A stretch of 44,254 bases of DNA, from positions 1-44,254 of IMG/VR virus record IMGVR_UViG_3300020444_000006. One strand, given 5' to 3'. The notes beneath the pieces are model-generated. The model did no database searches, had not been told where the DNA came from, and saw nothing but the letters and a program-made list of their open reading frames with translations. A program made the translations under genes and the position numbers. Shown here piece by piece: positions 4,899 through 44,254 of the stretch (its first letter is position 1; every line of letters starts with the position of its first letter). Source of the DNA: a virus.

Positions 4899-7800
4899 TT
4901 ATTCCTCTGTGCTAATCAGCGTGACAGATTGGGTGTCAATGAATTGCTGTGGATGCCAGCGAGTTTGCGAAGACACGAGGACTCTATAGCTAAAATTACT
5001 AGTACTAGAACTCGTGTCGGTGTATGTCCAACTCTCCCCCGCATTTTCGATGTTTCTGCAACGCGGAGGCTGGCCTTCAATTTCGATTGAGGTGTGGCTC
5101 GTGGAGCCTTGCATCTCGCGAGTCTGTATTGTTTGCCACCCACCAGAGCCTATTTTCCGTTGTAGAGTAACCGTACAAGAAGGGATTACGGAGCCGTTAT
5201 AACACGCTCCGTCAGACAAGGAAAAGCCCGACCAACTAACACCAAATACCACGTTTTTACTGTTGCCGTTCGTACCAAACGGCCCCACTTCTACAGATGG
5301 GTTTAATGTCAAGACTGAAGAACGCGCTGAATTACTGAGTACACCGGCACTCAAACTTCCGCCAAAGTAACTATTCCCTTCTGTATCTCTCCACTCTGTG
5401 GCATTCGATTTTTTTGCTTTAGCATAATCTGGCTTGCTGCCAGACATAAATTTGGGGCCATAATAATATGTCAAACCATCAGGTCCAAAGCCGTCTGGAT
5501 TTGCTAATTCCATGTAGTTTGCACCTATGTTTTCGGAAGCGTTTGAGCGCAGCGTGCCGCCAAACACATAATCATCCGTCTCTGTATCGAAAAACAAACG
5601 AGATACACCCTGACTGTTTTGAAAAATGACACGCATTGCTTTAAATATTATTTCTGAAACGTCAGGTGTGGCCCCTAGCTGTATGAGCGCGGCGTTTCCA
5701 TTTGTATCTACAGCGAGTTGTGCAACAGCGCGGTACTCATTCAGCTCATTATTGACCTCTGACAATAGGGTAAGCGCGGACTGCGCTTTGTCATTTGCAC
5801 TTTCCGCCGTTGATTTAACCCCCGTTATTGCGCTGGCGTTGGTTGTTGCCTTTCCGTCGGCCGACTCTGCGGTGGTTTTGGCTTGCTGTGCAATTGTGTT
5901 AGTGGCACTCAAACCATTAGCACTATCATTGACCGCGTTTGAAATACTTTGGATGGCACTTGCATTAGTGTTTGCTTTTCCGTCGGCGTTTTCGGCTGTC
6001 GCTTTTGCTTGCTGCGCAATTGTGTTAGTGGCTGTTAAATCGTCGTTCAGAATGCTTACATCATTCTCGATTCTTGTAATGGATGAGGCGTTTTGCGCGG
6101 CGTTCAATGCAGCGTTTTGCGCGGATGCTTTAGCTTCTTGAGCAAGAGTGAAATTAGCTTGCACACTTTGTTCTAAATTTGTTGCTCTCCCCTCTATAGC
6201 GCTCAAAGTTACCGCGTTTTCATTGGCTTTAATTTCAACTAAATCAATGCGAGAAAGCGCACCCGTCAAATTACCGCTCAACCCAGATACGCTAAGGTTT
6301 AATTGCTCTATTGCAATGGCATTACCCTCGGCATCTGTCTCAACTTGAGATAGGCGCTTATTGGTGGCGGTTATAGCATTACCGTTTGATAGTGTTACCG
6401 TTTGCAACTCACCGATATCTTTAGCGAGCGAACCTTCAGGAGAAACATCAATCTGAAGCTGGTTGACCGCTAGTGCAACTGATTGGTTGGTTTCGGCCTC
6501 TTGCATATAAGCGGATAAGTCATTAACTGCCTGATGAAGCAGTGCCGCTTGCACATCGTAGGTTTGAATTTGTTGAGAAGCGAGCCCCGCAACCTGCTCA
6601 GTAATGCCCAGGCTATCTACCTGCTGTTGCACATCGCTAATTGATGACTCAACACCTTCAATGTCTTGCTCAAAGCTTTGAACAATATCTTGAATAGTAC
6701 CGGTTTGACCGTTTAGAAATGTGGCCGCAGATACAGCCTTCTGAATGACATTGTTGTCGATAAGTTCTTGGCGTTTTGCTTCTAGCGCAATGATGGTATC
6801 GAGCGCATTAACTCTCTGCTCAACGTTGCTAACCGTTATTGCGTTCTCGTTGAAATAAGACGTTGATACACGTTGCGCTATCTCAGCTGCGTTAGCATTA
6901 ATGGCTAGCTCGGCTGCGTTAACCCTTGATGTAACATTCGCTAAGTCTTGCGTAGTGGCATCTGCTTTACCTATCGTAATAGATGTTAACTTGAACTCAT
7001 CACTGGCATCAGCACCAAGAACCAAACGAACGCGGGTTACTGTACCCGAGTAGTTAGGCATTGCTGAAAAATCAATTAGCAGCAACGAAGCTTCTTCTAC
7101 GTAGTTAGCATAAGTCTCAACTGAATTATCATCGCGTTCGATAATAACAGTGCCAGACCAACCCGAACCAGCTAGGCGCTGTAGCGAAACACGAATTAAC
7201 TTATTTTCGCTTGCTAGATAGTTAAGCGTATTGTTCTCAATATCGCCGTGCGTAACCGTAATTTCGTTAAGGCCAGCAGTTAGCGTTCCGTTAACTGCTT
7301 GCCAACCCTGGGCGCTATCGAAAAAGTTGAACGCATAGGCAGGCTCTAACGCTGAAATTGACTCGCTGACAATGGCAGTAGCTTTCGCGGTGATAATGCC
7401 AGGTATTAAAGAGAGCTCTGAAGATAAACTAGTAATTGCATCTTCTGTATTTTCAATGCGCTTCGAAGCAAGCTCGACTTCGCCAGACACACCATCAATC
7501 TTTAACGATGCTTCAGTGAATTTATCATCAGCATAGTTGTAAGCGCGATTAACAATTAGACCGTTAGACGGGTCACGATAAACTACCGCGTTGGTAAGTT
7601 CTTCGCCCTGCTCTATTCTGCGCGCCAACTCAAGTTGATACGCTGCGTTTTCACTGATGCTTTGTAGTAAGAGCGCCTGCGCCGCTTCAGTGCTGATGCG
7701 CTCTTGCTGAACAATGCTCAGCGTTTGTGCTTCAAAATCAACAAAGCGATTGTCAATATCTTCCACACTTAACTTTAAGCTTTCGATATCGACTGTGATC

Positions 7801-31064: not shown

Positions 31065-31141
31065 TACGCCGCTCTCCGTGTTGGTGTAAAAGCTGGCTTT
31101 GGCTGTGTGCGTTTAGGGTTTATTGGAACTACTTTGCTCAT
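31064..31141 (-). CDS. 25-residue basic proline-rich peptide
   Basis: ATG 31141 overlaps the Cro-like stop (ATGA) and has AAGGAGG four bases upstream, a very strong ribosome binding site. The product is proline- and basic-rich with no membrane segment. Its stop overlaps the start of the next gene. Probably a genuine mini-gene, at least as a coupling device; an RNA polymerase or regulator target is possible. Confidence 0.65.
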   Translation of the reverse strand: MSKVVPINPKRTQPKPAFTPTRRAA

Positions 31142-31335
31142 GCTGCCTCCTTCTCTTCGGGCTGGAAGTGTTCGCGTAGCGTGTCTACACGCTCAGCTTG
31201 CGGGGATTTGATATCACCTCTCGCAACTTTATAAAGCCACGCAATAGGGATCTTGGTTGCCTTACTGATAGCAGGAAGCTCACCTCTTTTGCTGTGAGCA
31301 GTCTTTAGTTTTTTTATAATCGTTGCTGTTTTCAT
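31138..31335 (-). CDS. Cro-like HTH regulator
   Basis: 65 residues with a helix-turn-helix (about 20-45: PAISKATKIPIAWLYKVARGD) and a short acidic tail. First gene behind the leftward promoter at 31384-31412, so in the position of cro. It would bind the operators that overlap this promoter and shift the phage to lytic growth. Assignment as Cro is from position; no operator contacts are shown. Confidence 0.75.
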   Translation of the reverse strand: MKTATIIKKLKTAHSKRGELPAISKATKIPIAWLYKVARGDIKSPQAERVDTLREHFQPEEKEAA

Positions 31336-31372
31336 AAGATGAGTATTATTCCGGCATATGGATTATTAGTAA

Positions 31373-31382
31373 CACATATGTG
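31373..31382. promoter_or_regulatory. 10-bp palindrome in the Cro-like leader
   Basis: CACATATGTG is a perfect palindrome directly downstream of the -10 box and adjoining the operator at 31380-31394. It may extend that operator. Confidence 0.35.
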
Positions 31383-31394
31383 GAGCATAATCTC
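31380..31394 (-). promoter_or_regulatory. operator over the leftward promoter
   Basis: The plus strand reads GTGGAGCATAATCTC. It has the GTGGA half and an imperfect second half of the 15-bp motif seen at 33982 and 31993, and covers the -10 box (31384-31389) of the Cro-like operon. Confidence 0.6.
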
Positions 31395-31412
31395 AACCTT
31401 GGAGACTTTCAA
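31384..31412 (-). promoter_or_regulatory. leftward early promoter (pR-like)
   Basis: Minus strand TTGAAA, 17-base spacer, TATGCT. Start of transcription would fall near 31376, 40 bases before the Cro-like ATG. The operator at 31380-31394 covers the -10 box. Confidence 0.65.
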
Positions 31413-31450
31413 CCTGATTTTGAATTATTTTCTACTATGATCACATTTTA

Positions 31451-31465
31451 GTGGAGCATTTGCAC
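31451..31465. promoter_or_regulatory. second operator-like site upstream of the leftward promoter
   Basis: GTGGAGCATTTGCAC shares its first nine bases with the operator at 31380-31388, in the same orientation, 71 bp away. Likely a weaker site of the same repressor. Confidence 0.45.
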
Positions 31466-31522
31466 AAAACTGGATTTTGCAGAACTAAAGCTTGGTGAGG
31501 TTTAAAGATAGAATTAAGGCAC

Positions 31523-31543
31523 AAAAAAACCGCCCGAAGGCGG
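31523..31543 (-). terminator. rho-independent terminator of the 2-TM protein gene
   Basis: Minus strand CCGCC, loop TTCG, GGCGG, then seven T. It separates the membrane protein gene at 31563-31838 from the Cro-like operon. Confidence 0.85.
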
Positions 31544-31562
31544 CTTATTAATATCCCATCTA

Positions 31563-31838
31563 TTATCTTTTGCTTTGTATGAGAAGAGTCTTGTTAGGCA
31601 TTAAATGCAGAGCAAAGAACGCTGCTGCAACTACTAGGGTGACTGATATAATTTGAAGCGTTAGAAGTGAAACATCGACACTGGCGGTCGTGTTTGCTCT
31701 TACAGGTGGTGACAAAATAAAGGCGTAACCCATATTAAACACTCTCCCACTCAATTTTAACGTGAATGGTGGAAAAGCCAGCATAAAAGAGATTGCCAGG
31801 CTATAAACGAATAAAACAAACGGTCTATTGATTTCCAT
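31563..31838 (-). CDS. small two-TM membrane protein in the immunity region
   Basis: 91 residues. Hydrophobic segments at about 7-27 and 58-78 separated by a polar loop; C-terminus basic. Ribosome binding site AGGA about 9 bases upstream; a perfect TATAAT lies at 31886-31891 without a good -35 box at the right distance. Own terminator behind it. A monocistronic membrane gene between repressor and Cro-like operon is a typical place for a superinfection exclusion factor (compare lambda rex/sie), but no family is recognised. Confidence 0.7.
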   Translation of the reverse strand: MEINRPFVLFVYSLAISFMLAFPPFTLKLSGRVFNMGYAFILSPPVRANTTASVDVSLLTLQIISVTLVVAAAFFALHLMPNKTLLIQSKR

Positions 31839-31992
31839 ATACTTGATTCCTATTTATTACTTTACTTACCTTATTACCTTTCAGAATTATATTGAAGTGA
31901 TTTTGTTCAAGTCTCTTCGATAATGGTTTGTGAGATAGTTACCAAAAAAACACTACTGTATAAATGAACATGAGTCTAAAAGGTGCATTATT

Positions 31993-32007
31993 GTGGAATA
32001 TATTCCA
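31993..32007. promoter_or_regulatory. operator upstream of the repressor gene
   Basis: GTGGAATATATTCCA; the 14 bases TGGAATATATTCCA form a perfect palindrome. It has the same half-site (GTGGA / TCCA) and spacing as the site over the rightward promoter at 33982. It lies about 50 bases before the repressor ATG, so it may mediate autoregulation. Confidence 0.65.
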
Positions 32008-32057
32008 TAATATAGCGTGTATTAATCAAAAAGATTTATTTTTATAGGAACCGCGTA

Positions 32058-32525
32058 ATGGATAATAAGAAGGTTTTGGTAAAAAACTTACGCGCTATTT
32101 CTCAGGCCTTGGGCTGTGAAACTAACGCATCTAAGTTTGCAAAGCTGATAAATGAACGCGCTGGCGATAACGTTATTGATAGAAGTTACGTTGCCAGAAT
32201 TCTAAAGGACTCGCCTAAAGATCCAGCTAACATTAGTTTCGACAAGCTATCGACCATAGCCAATGCTCTTAATGTCGATGTGTGGCAGATAGTTCACCCA
32301 ATGGGCTTCGATAGTAAAGGTAGATCTTTGGCTTCAAGTAGCGCACTAGATGGAAATATATTGAAACGCGCTGTTAAGTATTCAATCTCTGCGGCTGAAG
32401 AACTTAAAAACGAGAATTTGGACTTTATTTCAGAAATGGCCGAGACTGGCTATCTTTGCATGGTGAAGGGAGAAGACGAAAAGCTTGGATTTGAATTAGC
32501 CAAGCTTTCTCAAAAATATTCTTAA
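32058..32525 (+). CDS. phage repressor candidate (HTH, no protease domain)
   Basis: 155 residues. HTH-type N-terminal domain (about 1-75), including SKFAKLINERAGDNVIDRSYVARIL and then LSTIANALNV. The C-terminal half (about 85-155) is helical and acidic and shows no S24/LexA Ser-Lys catalytic pattern. AGGA eight bases upstream. It is divergent from the Cro-like operon. Its stop overlaps the stop of the convergent membrane gene by 4 bases. It is the best CI-like candidate; RecA-stimulated self-cleavage is not supported. Confidence 0.7.
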   Translation: MDNKKVLVKNLRAISQALGCETNASKFAKLINERAGDNVIDRSYVARILKDSPKDPANISFDKLSTIANALNVDVWQIVHPMGFDSKGRSLASSSALDGNILKRAVKYSISAAEELKNENLDFISEMAETGYLCMVKGEDEKLGFELAKLSQKYS

Positions 32526-32782
32526 TCCGCTTCGCTAAATTCCCTTTCAAGAGATTCCGCGCTGTCTAGCAACGAATCTCTTTTTTGTTTCCACTCAACA
32601 AGTTTTTTAAAGCGCTCAGTTTTACTTGGCAAGCTTTCAATTTCCCTGCTTTCTGATAAGAGCCTTATAGCTTTGTTTGTCATAATACCCCACTTCGCCA
32701 ACCGTGAAACGAGCTTATAAAAACCGATAACAACGATAAATAAAACGGTTGTCATAAATGCAACTGATAGTGTTAAACCCAT
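32522..32782 (-). CDS. one-TM membrane protein with coiled coil
   Basis: 86 residues. One N-terminal membrane segment (about 5-27), then a charged helical coiled coil (about 35-85). Convergent with and overlapping the repressor by 4 bases. Four bases after the five-TM protein gene, so in one operon with it. The pair looks like a two-part membrane system with a cytoplasmic coiled-coil arm; function unknown. Confidence 0.7.
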   Translation of the reverse strand: MGLTLSVAFMTTVLFIVVIGFYKLVSRLAKWGIMTNKAIRLLSESREIESLPSKTERFKKLVEWKQKRDSLLDSAESLEREFSEAD

Positions 32783-32786
32783 AGCT

Positions 32787-33257
32787 CTAATTCCTTTTTA
32801 CTATTGCACACAATAAAGGTAATACCGCCAAAGTGACGAAACCCGCATTTGTGAGTGCAATGACCTCTGAATAAAAATAGTTCGTTATAGCAGCGTCCGT
32901 AAGCTTGATATCGATTGCCCTAACTATGTGGCAAAAGATAGCAATGGCCTCTAGCGCTGCGCTTATCAAAAGAGCGTACAGCGGAGCTCGTTTGCGAGCA
33001 ACCAGAAAGAAAAGCGTAGCCAGGTAGACAATATCAATTAAACTCCAATAGAAATATCGCCACACTTCACCTGGGTCATACGCTTTTATTGGACAGTCCA
33101 GCAAGAACGATAAGAAGTAGAAAGAAAAGAGTGTAAAACAGAAAGCGAAGTGCCTCCACTTCCTTAGAGCAGCCGAAGAAATCAAGCTCAACAATATTAA
33201 CTGCATTGATAAATTGTCGAACATATCGCCATCGACTGCTATTACACACTCTTCCAT
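32787..33257 (-). CDS. multi-TM membrane protein, lysogenic conversion candidate
   Basis: 156 residues with about five hydrophobic segments (about 17-30, 38-55, 68-85, 92-112, 137-152). Starts with acidic MEECVIAVDGD. AAGGA sits six bases upstream, inside the preceding mini-gene's stop region. No family recognised. Expressed on the strand opposite to the repressor, between the two HTH regulator genes, where prophages carry exclusion or defence genes. A role in blocking injection by other phages is inference. Confidence 0.7.
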   Translation of the reverse strand: MEECVIAVDGDMFDNLSMQLILLSLISSAALRKWRHFAFCFTLFSFYFLSFLLDCPIKAYDPGEVWRYFYWSLIDIVYLATLFFLVARKRAPLYALLISAALEAIAIFCHIVRAIDIKLTDAAITNYFYSEVIALTNAGFVTLAVLPLLCAIVKRN

Positions 33258-33266
33258 TACTAGTCC

Positions 33267-33344
33267 TTATTTAGTTTTGGTCTTGCTGTCACTACCGTCA
33301 TCTGTCGGTTTATCTCTATCGTCACCGTTACCGTTACGAGGCAT
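33267..33344 (-). CDS. 25-residue highly charged mini-protein
   Basis: ATG 33344 to TAA 33267. AGGAG seven bases upstream is a consensus ribosome binding site. The product is made almost wholly of D, K, N, G, S, T and P, so it is probably disordered. It is 9 bases before the next ATG, with that gene's ribosome binding site at its stop codon. It could be a leader peptide controlling the membrane operon or a small antitoxin-like partner; neither is shown. Confidence 0.6.
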   Translation of the reverse strand: MPRNGNGDDRDKPTDDGSDSKTKTK

Positions 33345-33377
33345 CGTTTTGCTCCTATTTTTAAGTTTAATGTAAAA

Positions 33378-33415
33378 GTGGATTATTTTCTACATATAAG
33401 TAATAATTGATCCAC
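33378..33415. promoter_or_regulatory. inverted operator pair before the conversion module
   Basis: GTGGATTAT at 33378-33386 and TTGATCCAC ending at 33415 face each other across about 20 AT-rich bases. Each half is like the half-sites at 33982, 31993 and 31380. The promoter of the minus-strand membrane operon should lie here, so this operon may be under the phage repressor. I could not choose reliable -35/-10 boxes. Confidence 0.5.
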
Positions 33416-33621
33416 AATTTTGATATTAGCATATATGCACAATACTTATATCGCTAGTTTGTGTGGTTCATAACAAACTACACTTTAGTATAAAGGTAAA
33501 CGCATTCACCGCACAAAGAGTTTAAATAAAACCCAAATAAAGTGCTGACGACTTAAATTGCAACCGCTGGAAAGCTCTATTCTTTGCTAGTGTTGGGGCA
33601 TCAAAAATACTGGGGTGTAAC

Positions 33622-33927
33622 GTGGATAAAAAGCGGGGTGAAAGAATAACAAAACTTATGCGTGAAAAGGGCTTCACGCGTGATGATTTTGCTATGCGTT
33701 CTGGCTACTCCATAAGCACCATCAGCAAGATCAGGAACGGACATGACTTTACAACCGATGTGCAAGCCGTTCTCTGCTCCTTACTTGAAACAACTCCTAA
33801 CTACCTGCACGGCTTTACCGACCGCACCCCTCAAATAGAACACATTTCATCGAAACTGACAACCCACAAAGATCCAAGGGTTATTCAGTTAATCTATGAT
33901 TTTCTTGACATTTGCGACACCAAATAA
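33622..33927 (+). CDS. HTH regulator upstream of the rightward operon
   Basis: 101 residues (GTG start at 33622). XRE-type helix-turn-helix (about 18-45: RDDFAMRSGYSISTISKIRNGHDF) then a helical part with a LETTPNYLHG segment typical of small XRE proteins, C-terminal helix. No protease domain. It lies directly before the rightward promoter, in the place of a second repressor or a lambda N/cIII neighbour. Could be a co-repressor. Confidence 0.75.
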   Translation: MDKKRGERITKLMREKGFTRDDFAMRSGYSISTISKIRNGHDFTTDVQAVLCSLLETTPNYLHGFTDRTPQIEHISSKLTTHKDPRVIQLIYDFLDICDTK

Positions 33928-33943
33928 TCTCTAAAAATTAAAT

Positions 33944-33958
33944 TGGGATTATACGCAC
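33944..33958. promoter_or_regulatory. operator-like site upstream of the rightward promoter
   Basis: TGGGATTATACGCAC matches the site at 33982-33996 in the central GGATTATAC and lies 38 bp upstream, just before the -35 box. Likely a second operator. Confidence 0.5.
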
Positions 33959-33965
33959 AATTTTG

Positions 33966-33993
33966 TTGACAATAATAGATTGTGGATTATACT
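33966..33993 (+). promoter_or_regulatory. rightward early promoter (pL-like)
   Basis: Consensus TTGACA, 16-base spacer, TATACT. This is the strongest sigma-70-type promoter I see in the window. Transcription would start near 34000, before the first gene of the rightward operon (34027). The operator at 33982-33996 covers the -10 box. Confidence 0.8.
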
Positions 33994-33996
33994 CCA
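33982..33996. promoter_or_regulatory. operator over the -10 box of the rightward promoter
   Basis: GTGGATTATACTCCA contains TGGA and TCCA halves around TTATAC, matching the palindrome at 31993-32007 in arm and spacing. Binding here would shut off the rightward operon. Confidence 0.65.
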
Positions 33997-38763: not shown

Positions 38764-39918
38764 ATGATTTTCAAAAACGCAAAAATTTACAAGATTACAC
38801 AGCCTTTGGCATTTAGCAGCGAAGCATTTGAGAAGTTATTAGGTGAGCATGAGTTTCGCCATTGCGGTGCACACGACTTGGCAACTATGGGTTTCGCTCG
38901 CTGTATTGGTGGTTTGTTCGCGCATGTCGCACAAGGCATGTTCACTATCCGCATTCAGAAAGAAGAAAAGCTTTTACCAGACAGCGTAGTCAATCAAGAG
39001 CTTGAAGAAGTAGTTGAGCGCATCGAAATGGAAACAGGTGCGCCGGTTGGTAAAAAAGCAAAGGCTGATATAAAGCAAGAGATTATCACCAAATTGCTGC
39101 CACAAGCTTTCAGCAACCGCAAAAGCACTTACGGCACAATCATTCCTGAAAGCAATCTGGTAATTGTTCACGCTAGCTCAGACTCACAAGCTGAAGCTTG
39201 GCTTGCTATGGTTCGCAAAGCTATTGGTTCACTTCCCGTTGTTCCATTTACTCGCCGCAGCATTAAATCTGAACTGACTCACTGGGTTACCGACACCACG
39301 CCTGACACCATCAACCTGTTAGAAGAAGCAGAGTTAAAAGCTACGGATGATACGGGCGGTCTAGTGCGCGTGAAAAACCAAGCGCTTGACACTGATGAAG
39401 TAATAAACCATTTGGACGCTGGCAAGCTGGTTCAGAAAGTAGCGTTTGAGTATGACGAGGCTTTCAGCGCCATTCTTTGTGAAGACGGTTCAATTAAGCG
39501 CATCAAGTTAGCCGATCGCGTTCTAGAAGAAAATGACGACATTCCTAGCGACCAAGCAGAAGCGCGTTTCGATGCTGATGTTTATCTGTATGTAAGCACC
39601 CTGCTCGGCTTTATTAAGTTGATTGATGCTGCATTTCAGTTAACCGAAGAAAGTAGTAGCCAGCCTGACTCTGATGAAGTTGAAGAGGACCAACCAAACC
39701 CTTTCGTAAACAGTGAAGGTAAAGACGTTTTCTACGATGAAGCGGTTAAGTTCGTGCGCGAGACAAGACGCGCATCAGTTTCAGCAGTGCAACGCAAATT
39801 TAAAATTGGCTTCAACCGTGGCGCTCGTTTAATTGAGCAGATGGAAGCTGAAGGCATTGTAAGTAAGCCAGGTCATAACGGTGTACGTGAAGTGCTTGTT
39901 CCACCTAAAGCCGCTTAA
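38764..39918 (+). CDS. rdgC: RdgC fused to an FtsK gamma domain
   Basis: 384 residues. Residues 1-295 align over the whole length of bacterial RdgC, a ring-forming DNA-binding protein that limits RecA (segments [37 protein letters not shown]). An acidic linker (296-320) leads to residues 321-384, which closely match the FtsK gamma winged helix, with [20 protein letters not shown] and [15 protein letters not shown]. Host RdgC ends near 300, so the DNA-translocase domain is an added fusion. The frame is continuous, with no sign of a sequencing join. Confidence 0.92.
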
Positions 39919-44164: not shown

Positions 44165-44177
44165 AAGGTTTTTTAAT

Positions 44178-44235
44178 TGGTGCCCGGGGCCGGACTTGAA
44201 CCGGCACGCTGTTACCAGCGAGGGATTTTAAATCC
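44178..44235 (-). repeat. attR: right attachment site, inside tRNA-Leu
   Basis: 58 bases identical to 133-190. Identity starts in the anticodon arm and goes to the tRNA 3' end. Together with the left copy it bounds the prophage. Confidence 0.95.
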
Positions 44236-44254
44236 CTTGTGTCTACCAATTTCA
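44178..44254 (-). tRNA. tRNA-Leu(UAA), 5' end outside the window
   Basis: The minus strand shows an anticodon arm AGGGA-TTTAAAA-TCCCT with anticodon TAA at 44228-44230, a long variable arm (CTCGCTGGTAACAGCG), a T-arm with GGTTCAAGTCC, and the acceptor 3' part CCCGGGC-A-CCA. About ten 5' bases lie beyond 44254. The prophage copy of the 3' part keeps the tRNA intact, so the host keeps a working gene. Confidence 0.93.

Follow-up and report, generated by a model that had tools for sequence, protein, structure and literature searches.

An apparently undescribed module of a small peptide and two membrane proteins in temperate phages and bacterial chromosomes

RexAB-type systems, including RexABpp of Pseudomonas putida, have a membrane effector and are located with the phage repressor (PMC12894663), and the arbitrium system of Bacillus phages consists of AimR, AimP and AimX (PMC7790227). 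The three-gene locus described here resembles lambda RexAB and its relatives in that a membrane protein gene lies beside the repressor of a temperate phage, where two of the proteins may form one membrane unit, but it differs in combining a protein of five transmembrane (TM) segments with a single-TM coiled-coil protein and a peptide, in its convergent orientation and in having no DNA-binding sensor subunit. Its membrane proteins have no match to the RexB or Rex families in Pfam, PHROG, NCBIfam or PADLOC, and it lies on the strand opposite to the repressor, whereas a RexAB arrangement would be transcribed with the repressor from the maintenance promoter. As in arbitrium, a small peptide gene adjoins the lysogeny switch and the homologous peptides have the features of exported precursors, but two membrane proteins stand in place of an AimR-like cytoplasmic receptor, the peptide of our phage has no export signal, and the hosts are Gram-negative. 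No AimR gene lies beside the peptide gene, the neighbouring HTH proteins being short CI and Cro types, and the AimR model reaches only E=0.19 against the second of them. Two further comparisons concern peptide processing. Two family peptides (L117, L118) have leaders ending in GG, as do class II microcins and ComC pheromones, but most have a Sec signal or another N-terminus together with a conserved EPP motif, and no dedicated ABC exporter was seen near the module among the ORFs inspected. A small peptide with a charged C-terminal tail next to a multi-TM protein recalls AgrBD-type processing, yet what the 5-TM family keeps invariant or nearly so is W, Y, D, R and N, and an invariant Cys-His protease pair is lacking.

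The window analysed is the whole of an IMG/VR virus record (44,254 nucleotides), parts of which are ~88% identical in DNA to Alteromonas phage P24. As it encodes TerL, RepO, RecT, YqaJ and an integrase, we regard it as a lambda-like temperate phage of an Alteromonas-type host. A preliminary description had noted three coupled minus-strand ORFs convergent to the repressor, the first a mini-gene with a consensus ribosome binding site and the others coding for five-TM and one-TM proteins of no recognised family, and each of these points is borne out. The genes are separated by 9 nt (peptide to 5-TM) and 4 nt (5-TM to 1-TM), AGGAG precedes the 25-aa ORF, and the last gene overlaps the convergent CI-like HTH gene tail-to-tail by 4 nt (Table 1). 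Hydropathy gives five TM segments with the positive loops RKWRH, RKR and KRN all on one side for the larger protein and a single N-terminal TM segment followed by a charged tail for the smaller, a topology pattern found again in the corresponding proteins of a divergent phage, L010. Pfam, PHROGs and NCBIfam returned no convincing match for the three window proteins, the PADLOC-DB 2.0 HMMs matched neither peptide, 5-TM nor 1-TM protein of the window or of a second phage, L027, and PDB profile searches of the module proteins gave nothing credible. A search of open PubMed Central for the peptide motifs found no paper, an RNA family search of the cassette found none, and structure prediction (pLDDT 58) was of too low a quality for use. 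The suggestion that the immunity region contains a membrane module not yet described is upheld, its anti-phage part aside; what is new is the gene module, for which the libraries searched contain no matching family, and its function may turn out to be a familiar one.

Table 1. Features of the immunity region of the window
Feature	Position	Strand	Basis or remark
Immunity cassette exchanged as a unit	31174..33982	.	approximate edges; identity change vs L010
Cro-like small HTH protein, head of leftward operon	31138..31335	-	weak HTH matches; L010 counterpart 45% identity
Operator-like site	31381..31394	+	over -10 box of predicted leftward promoter 31412-31384 before cro
Operator-like palindrome TGGAATATATTCCA	31994..32007	+	upstream of HTH gene
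HTH regulator in CI position, convergent with module	32058..32525	+	HTH_3 E=0.001, below cut-off; L010 homologue 36%
Three-gene module	33344-32522	minus	peptide, then 5-TM, then 1-TM/coiled-coil gene
One-TM/coiled-coil protein, 86 aa	32522..32782	-	hydropathy; motif match to chromosomal homologues
Five-TM protein, 156 aa, N-out/C-in	32787..33257	-	hydropathy and charge; L010 homologue (41% identity); chromosomal-profile match
25-aa charged peptide MPRNGNGDDRDKPTDDGSDSKTKTK	33267..33344	-	ORF with AGGAG ribosome binding site; L010 conservation; position as in homologous loci
Operator-like site TGGATTATTTTCTA	33379..33392	+	35 nt upstream of peptide gene; minus strand one mismatch to TGGANNATANTCCA
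Second HTH regulator, divergent from module	33622..33927	+	HTH_26 E=2.5e-7; L010 counterpart 46% identity
Operator-like site	33983..33996	+	over -10 box of strong rightward early promoter 33966-33993 (TTGACA-16-TATACT)

Taken one by one as queries, the window proteins retrieved no homologue from viral contigs, phages or genome contigs, and the orphan status that this implied was overturned when a RecT-anchored scan located L010, three contigs identical over the compared stretch, in which the whole cassette order is kept, 25-aa peptide and 1-TM gene included. The two phages are ~90% identical in DNA from 33983 rightward and their similarity on the left ends at 31173, and between these points the cassette proteins (Cro-like, both HTH regulators, 5-TM) are syntenic but diverged to the identities given in Table 1. 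In L006 and L024 like flanks surround another cassette, in which a LexA-type CI gene stands with different membrane genes, in L025 the slot holds a toxin/antitoxin/SecB-chaperone-like set (SecB E=4.8e-5, HTH_3 E=7.9e-10), and four relatives in all hold other accessory genes at the position of the module. Because the flanks are ~90% identical and the inside is either diverged and syntenic or replaced, the trio is seen to travel with the immunity region, inside the exchanged cassette and in a slot where unrelated genes take its place in relatives, as an accessory cassette of a prophage immunity region should.

The same region of these phages holds several other genes. The set in L025 (6623-7853) comprises an HTH protein, a SecB-like chaperone and an unknown protein and resembles a toxin-antitoxin-chaperone system such as CmdTAC. 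L006 (5156-5557) and L024 (7468-7869) carry in the slot another unclassified convergent membrane protein of 133 aa (39% mutual identity), and two exact operator copies, TTTAAGTTATCTTA, lie between its gene and the early operon. The window itself encodes at 31563-31838 (minus strand) a small membrane protein of 91 aa with a weak match to PHROG 15604, relatives of which (36-41% identity) stand directly downstream of the LexA-type CI gene in L006 and L024, a rex-like position.

The 5-TM protein ties this cassette to bacterial chromosomes. A profile built from the window and L010 sequences found chromosomal homologues of ~200 aa, each gene standing between one for a peptide of ~52 aa ending in YTGGNGGEPEEDPDKKKRD, on its upstream side, and an overlapping 1-TM/coiled-coil gene downstream. 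The chromosomal 5-TM profile in turn made exactly three matches among the 2592 ORFs of nine phage loci, namely the 5-TM proteins of L010 (E=5.6e-8), L027 (E=8.4e-6) and the window (E=4.9e-4), the second of which had been only weakly related to the two-sequence alignment by profile comparison (P=0.026). The family shares the pattern W/Y, D, R..D/E, N, represented in the window by Y68, D75, R113 and N137, and on these profiles its homology across phages and chromosomes is established; the L122-type 5-TM protein is encoded by no named phage of the collection. For the 1-TM protein the evidence is a motif, KAIRLLSESREIES..KKLVEWKQK in the window against KALRLLQEYSQIET..REILVWNQK in chromosomal homologues, and a chromosomal 1-TM profile that ranks it second of the 2592 ORFs with a score weak and non-significant alone but at the expected position, so that homology here is only weakly indicated.

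With wider profiles the module was found in 20 of 40 sampled genomes of one family, in 82 of 347 of another (that of the genome holding L122) and in 33 of 395 sampled across the order, and at class level a narrower profile found it in 2 of 369, coverage beyond the sampled order being thin. The recurring order is a small Gly-rich peptide, typically with G(N/G)G-x-EPP, then the 5-TM protein, then the 1-TM coiled coil. Of 89 5-TM genes, 67 have a Gly/Pro-rich small ORF immediately before them, as against 21 of 796 control ORFs from the same loci, with the reservation that the 89 loci are partly non-independent and the control set is small, and 63 have a 1-TM-type ORF after them. This recurrence in L010, other prophages and bacterial chromosomes bears out the tiny gene as a genuine partner, which is conserved in L010 and whose counterparts precede the 5-TM genes of the family. 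The chromosomal copies are vertically kept, at constant sites flanked by housekeeping genes, and include tandem duplicates; some 5-TM arrays (L160, L161) have neither a peptide nor a 1-TM partner. In one of these, L160:5908-9625, six tandem 5-TM paralogues are separated by spacers of ~61-71 nt.

Common to the family peptides is a core (for example GNGAGIEPP, GGGGVEP or NGGGTEPP), which follows one of three kinds of N-terminus: a Sec-type signal (L027, L075, L077, L082, L122), a double-glycine leader such as LTTKDLVRVIGGSAGGG (L117, METKLQTLKKLTTKDLVRVIGGSAGGG, with a weak ComC match, E=0.057, and L118) or the segment TDSVQISEQAKALL (L116, L121). That differing export-type leaders are joined to one common core suggests that function resides in the core, which would usually leave the cytoplasm, and the many peptides made of tandem core repeats, such as GNGAGIEPPK or, behind signal sequences, GGGGVEPIAV, suggest a precursor for several peptide copies. 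At four loci (L075, L076, L077, L079) the exported-type small proteins before the 5-TM gene consist nearly entirely of GGGGVEP-type repeats.

The window peptide, of 25 aa and containing GNGDDRDKP, occupies the position that GGNGGEPEEDP-type peptides have in homologous loci. Its L010 counterpart, MPGNSGGDDRDDPP..., shares with it the pattern MPxNxxGDDRDxP, and a DNA pattern for this motif matched only the three identical L010-type contigs among 2.9 million viral contigs. Silent changes between the two peptide genes are in excess (dS 1.96, dN 0.55, over only 25 codons), and as judged from these sequences the conservation of the module in the two phages exceeds chance. Neither peptide has an export signal or a GG-terminated leader. 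A peptide profile of the chromosomal homologues ranks the L010 peptide second among the 2592 phage ORFs, with a score not significant alone but at the expected position. Because the window peptide is signal-less and did not pass a strict Gly/Pro test, its kinship with the exported peptides rests on position and composition, by which we class it as a minimal, signal-less member of the Gly-rich/EPP component. With this minimal peptide, the family gene order and the 5-TM match, the window trio appears to be a phage-borne member of a widespread, apparently undescribed three-gene module of prophages and chromosomes.

A convergent repressor-type gene stands beside the module in ten elements. In the lambda-like phages (window, L010, L027, L122, L186, L188) and in Mu-like elements (L117, probably also L196 and L121) the two are tail-to-tail, as they are in L128 near an integrase, and in the window, L117, L121 and L196 the overlap at the stop codons is exactly 4 nt. 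The L082 copy instead adjoins tail fibre gene J. One chromosomal locus also has an HTH gene tail-to-tail with the module, but many have no HTH neighbour. A four-gene unit inherited by descent, HTH gene included, was considered and rejected; no homology between chromosomal and phage HTH proteins was detectable, so the pairing is a repeated association and not common descent. The loci compared establish the gene order, the association with a Gly/Pro peptide and the repeated tail-to-tail placement with repressor genes.

An operator pair had been described ahead of the trio; one site, 35 nt before the peptide gene, stands, but the loose operator pattern has 16 matches in the whole window against 9.7 expected, which is not significant, although each of the three sites that differ by no more than one mismatch falls inside the cassette. 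In L010 four copies of TTGAATATATTCAA (at most two mismatches) are present against 0.13 expected, a number that none of 200 shuffles reached; one precedes cro, two lie upstream of the module and one precedes the rightward operon, and the site at 5841 falls between the boxes of the predicted module promoter. The window set differs from that of L010 but is analogous. The phage repressor therefore probably represses or gates the module in these two phages, and free expression in lysogens is doubtful, because in both the operator-like sites upstream of the module are shared with lytic promoters. Such control is not general, and we dropped it as a property of all the phages, since the repeated sites of L122 and L188 are nearer the early promoter.

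We tentatively propose a model for the module that best fits these observations, and which we rate as somewhat short of an even chance, in which a widespread peptide and membrane receptor/immunity complex has been borrowed by temperate phages as an accessory cassette. The 5-TM and 1-TM proteins would form one inner-membrane complex that recognises the peptide, acting as its receptor or as self-protection, and the coiled coil would relay the signal into the cytoplasm. Judged by its leader, the peptide would be exported in most homologues; the 25-aa form of the window, which has no such signal, may instead reach the complex from the cytoplasmic side. The phage would carry the module as an accessory cassette that is exchanged with the immunity region and whose transcription is probably gated by the phage repressor. 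The likeliest benefit, and the least certain step, would be that other phages or cells are outcompeted or excluded. Against this model stand the signal-less window peptide, the weak homology of the 1-TM protein and the partnerless 5-TM arrays.

Superinfection exclusion of the Rex kind was raised in the preliminary description. Read in this way, or as abortive infection, the 5-TM protein would be a membrane-damaging effector set free by the 1-TM protein or the peptide upon infection by another phage. This would suit a module beside the repressor, as RexAB-type effectors are (PMC12894663), in a slot that in L025 holds a toxin-antitoxin-chaperone-like set. Beyond location the likeness finds no support: with no PADLOC, PHROG or Pfam match and a convergent orientation that leaves the module not co-transcribed with the repressor, homology to Rex is unsupported, a cytoplasmic DNA-binding sensor partner is absent, and the operator-like sites make unrestrained expression in lysogens questionable. 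A dedicated exclusion factor would, moreover, not be expected to occur as vertically maintained chromosomal loci whose exported-type peptides are repeated, and we consider this reading unlikely. A host envelope or bacteriocin-immunity gene carried as a lysogenic-conversion cassette of the ordinary sort and taking no part in conflict between phages would account for the tandem copies between housekeeping genes, for orphan 5-TM arrays that resemble immunity arrays (L160) and for the copy beside tail fibre gene J, but it leaves the repeated repressor-side placement in ~10 unrelated prophages unexplained, and it too seems unlikely.

Peptide signalling may feed into the lysis-lysogeny decision, the peptide reporting the density of phages or lysogens and the membrane complex altering the neighbouring repressor, an arbitrium-like logic with different parts. 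Leaders and tandem repeats in the peptide precursors, the tail-to-tail repressor-type HTH genes of lambda-like and Mu-like prophages and of one chromosomal locus, and the operator-like sites upstream of the module would all be in keeping with it. The window and L010 peptides nevertheless have no export signal, an HTH neighbour is missing from many chromosomal copies, no relationship between the chromosomal and the phage HTH could be detected, and the link from membrane to repressor is hypothetical; we rate this reading as rather improbable. Its broadest form, peptide communication in Gram-negative temperate phages and host families, in which a Gly-rich peptide and a two-subunit membrane receptor tail-to-tail with the repressor would tune lysis and lysogeny or recognise kin lysogens, is quite a long shot.

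What had been an isolated trio of unknown genes becomes a defined and widespread module with a recognisable peptide, which both chromosomes and temperate phages of several types carry. Should the peptide prove to be exported and sensed, the proposed peptide and membrane complex would represent either a competition/immunity pair not seen before or, at the lysogeny switch of Gram-negative phages, a new channel of communication.

Two further features of the window lie outside the cassette. Its right end (44174-44254) matches tRNA-Leu genes at up to 96% over ~80 bp, ARAGORN finding no complete tRNA there, and is probably part of the attachment site. At 38764-39918 an RdgC protein (E=4.6e-86) is fused to a C-terminal FtsK gamma, or KOPS-reading, domain (FtsK_gamma E=1e-24) that resembles the DNA of E. 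coli ftsK, and this fusion is kept in L004 and L006 (96%) and in L027 (77%).
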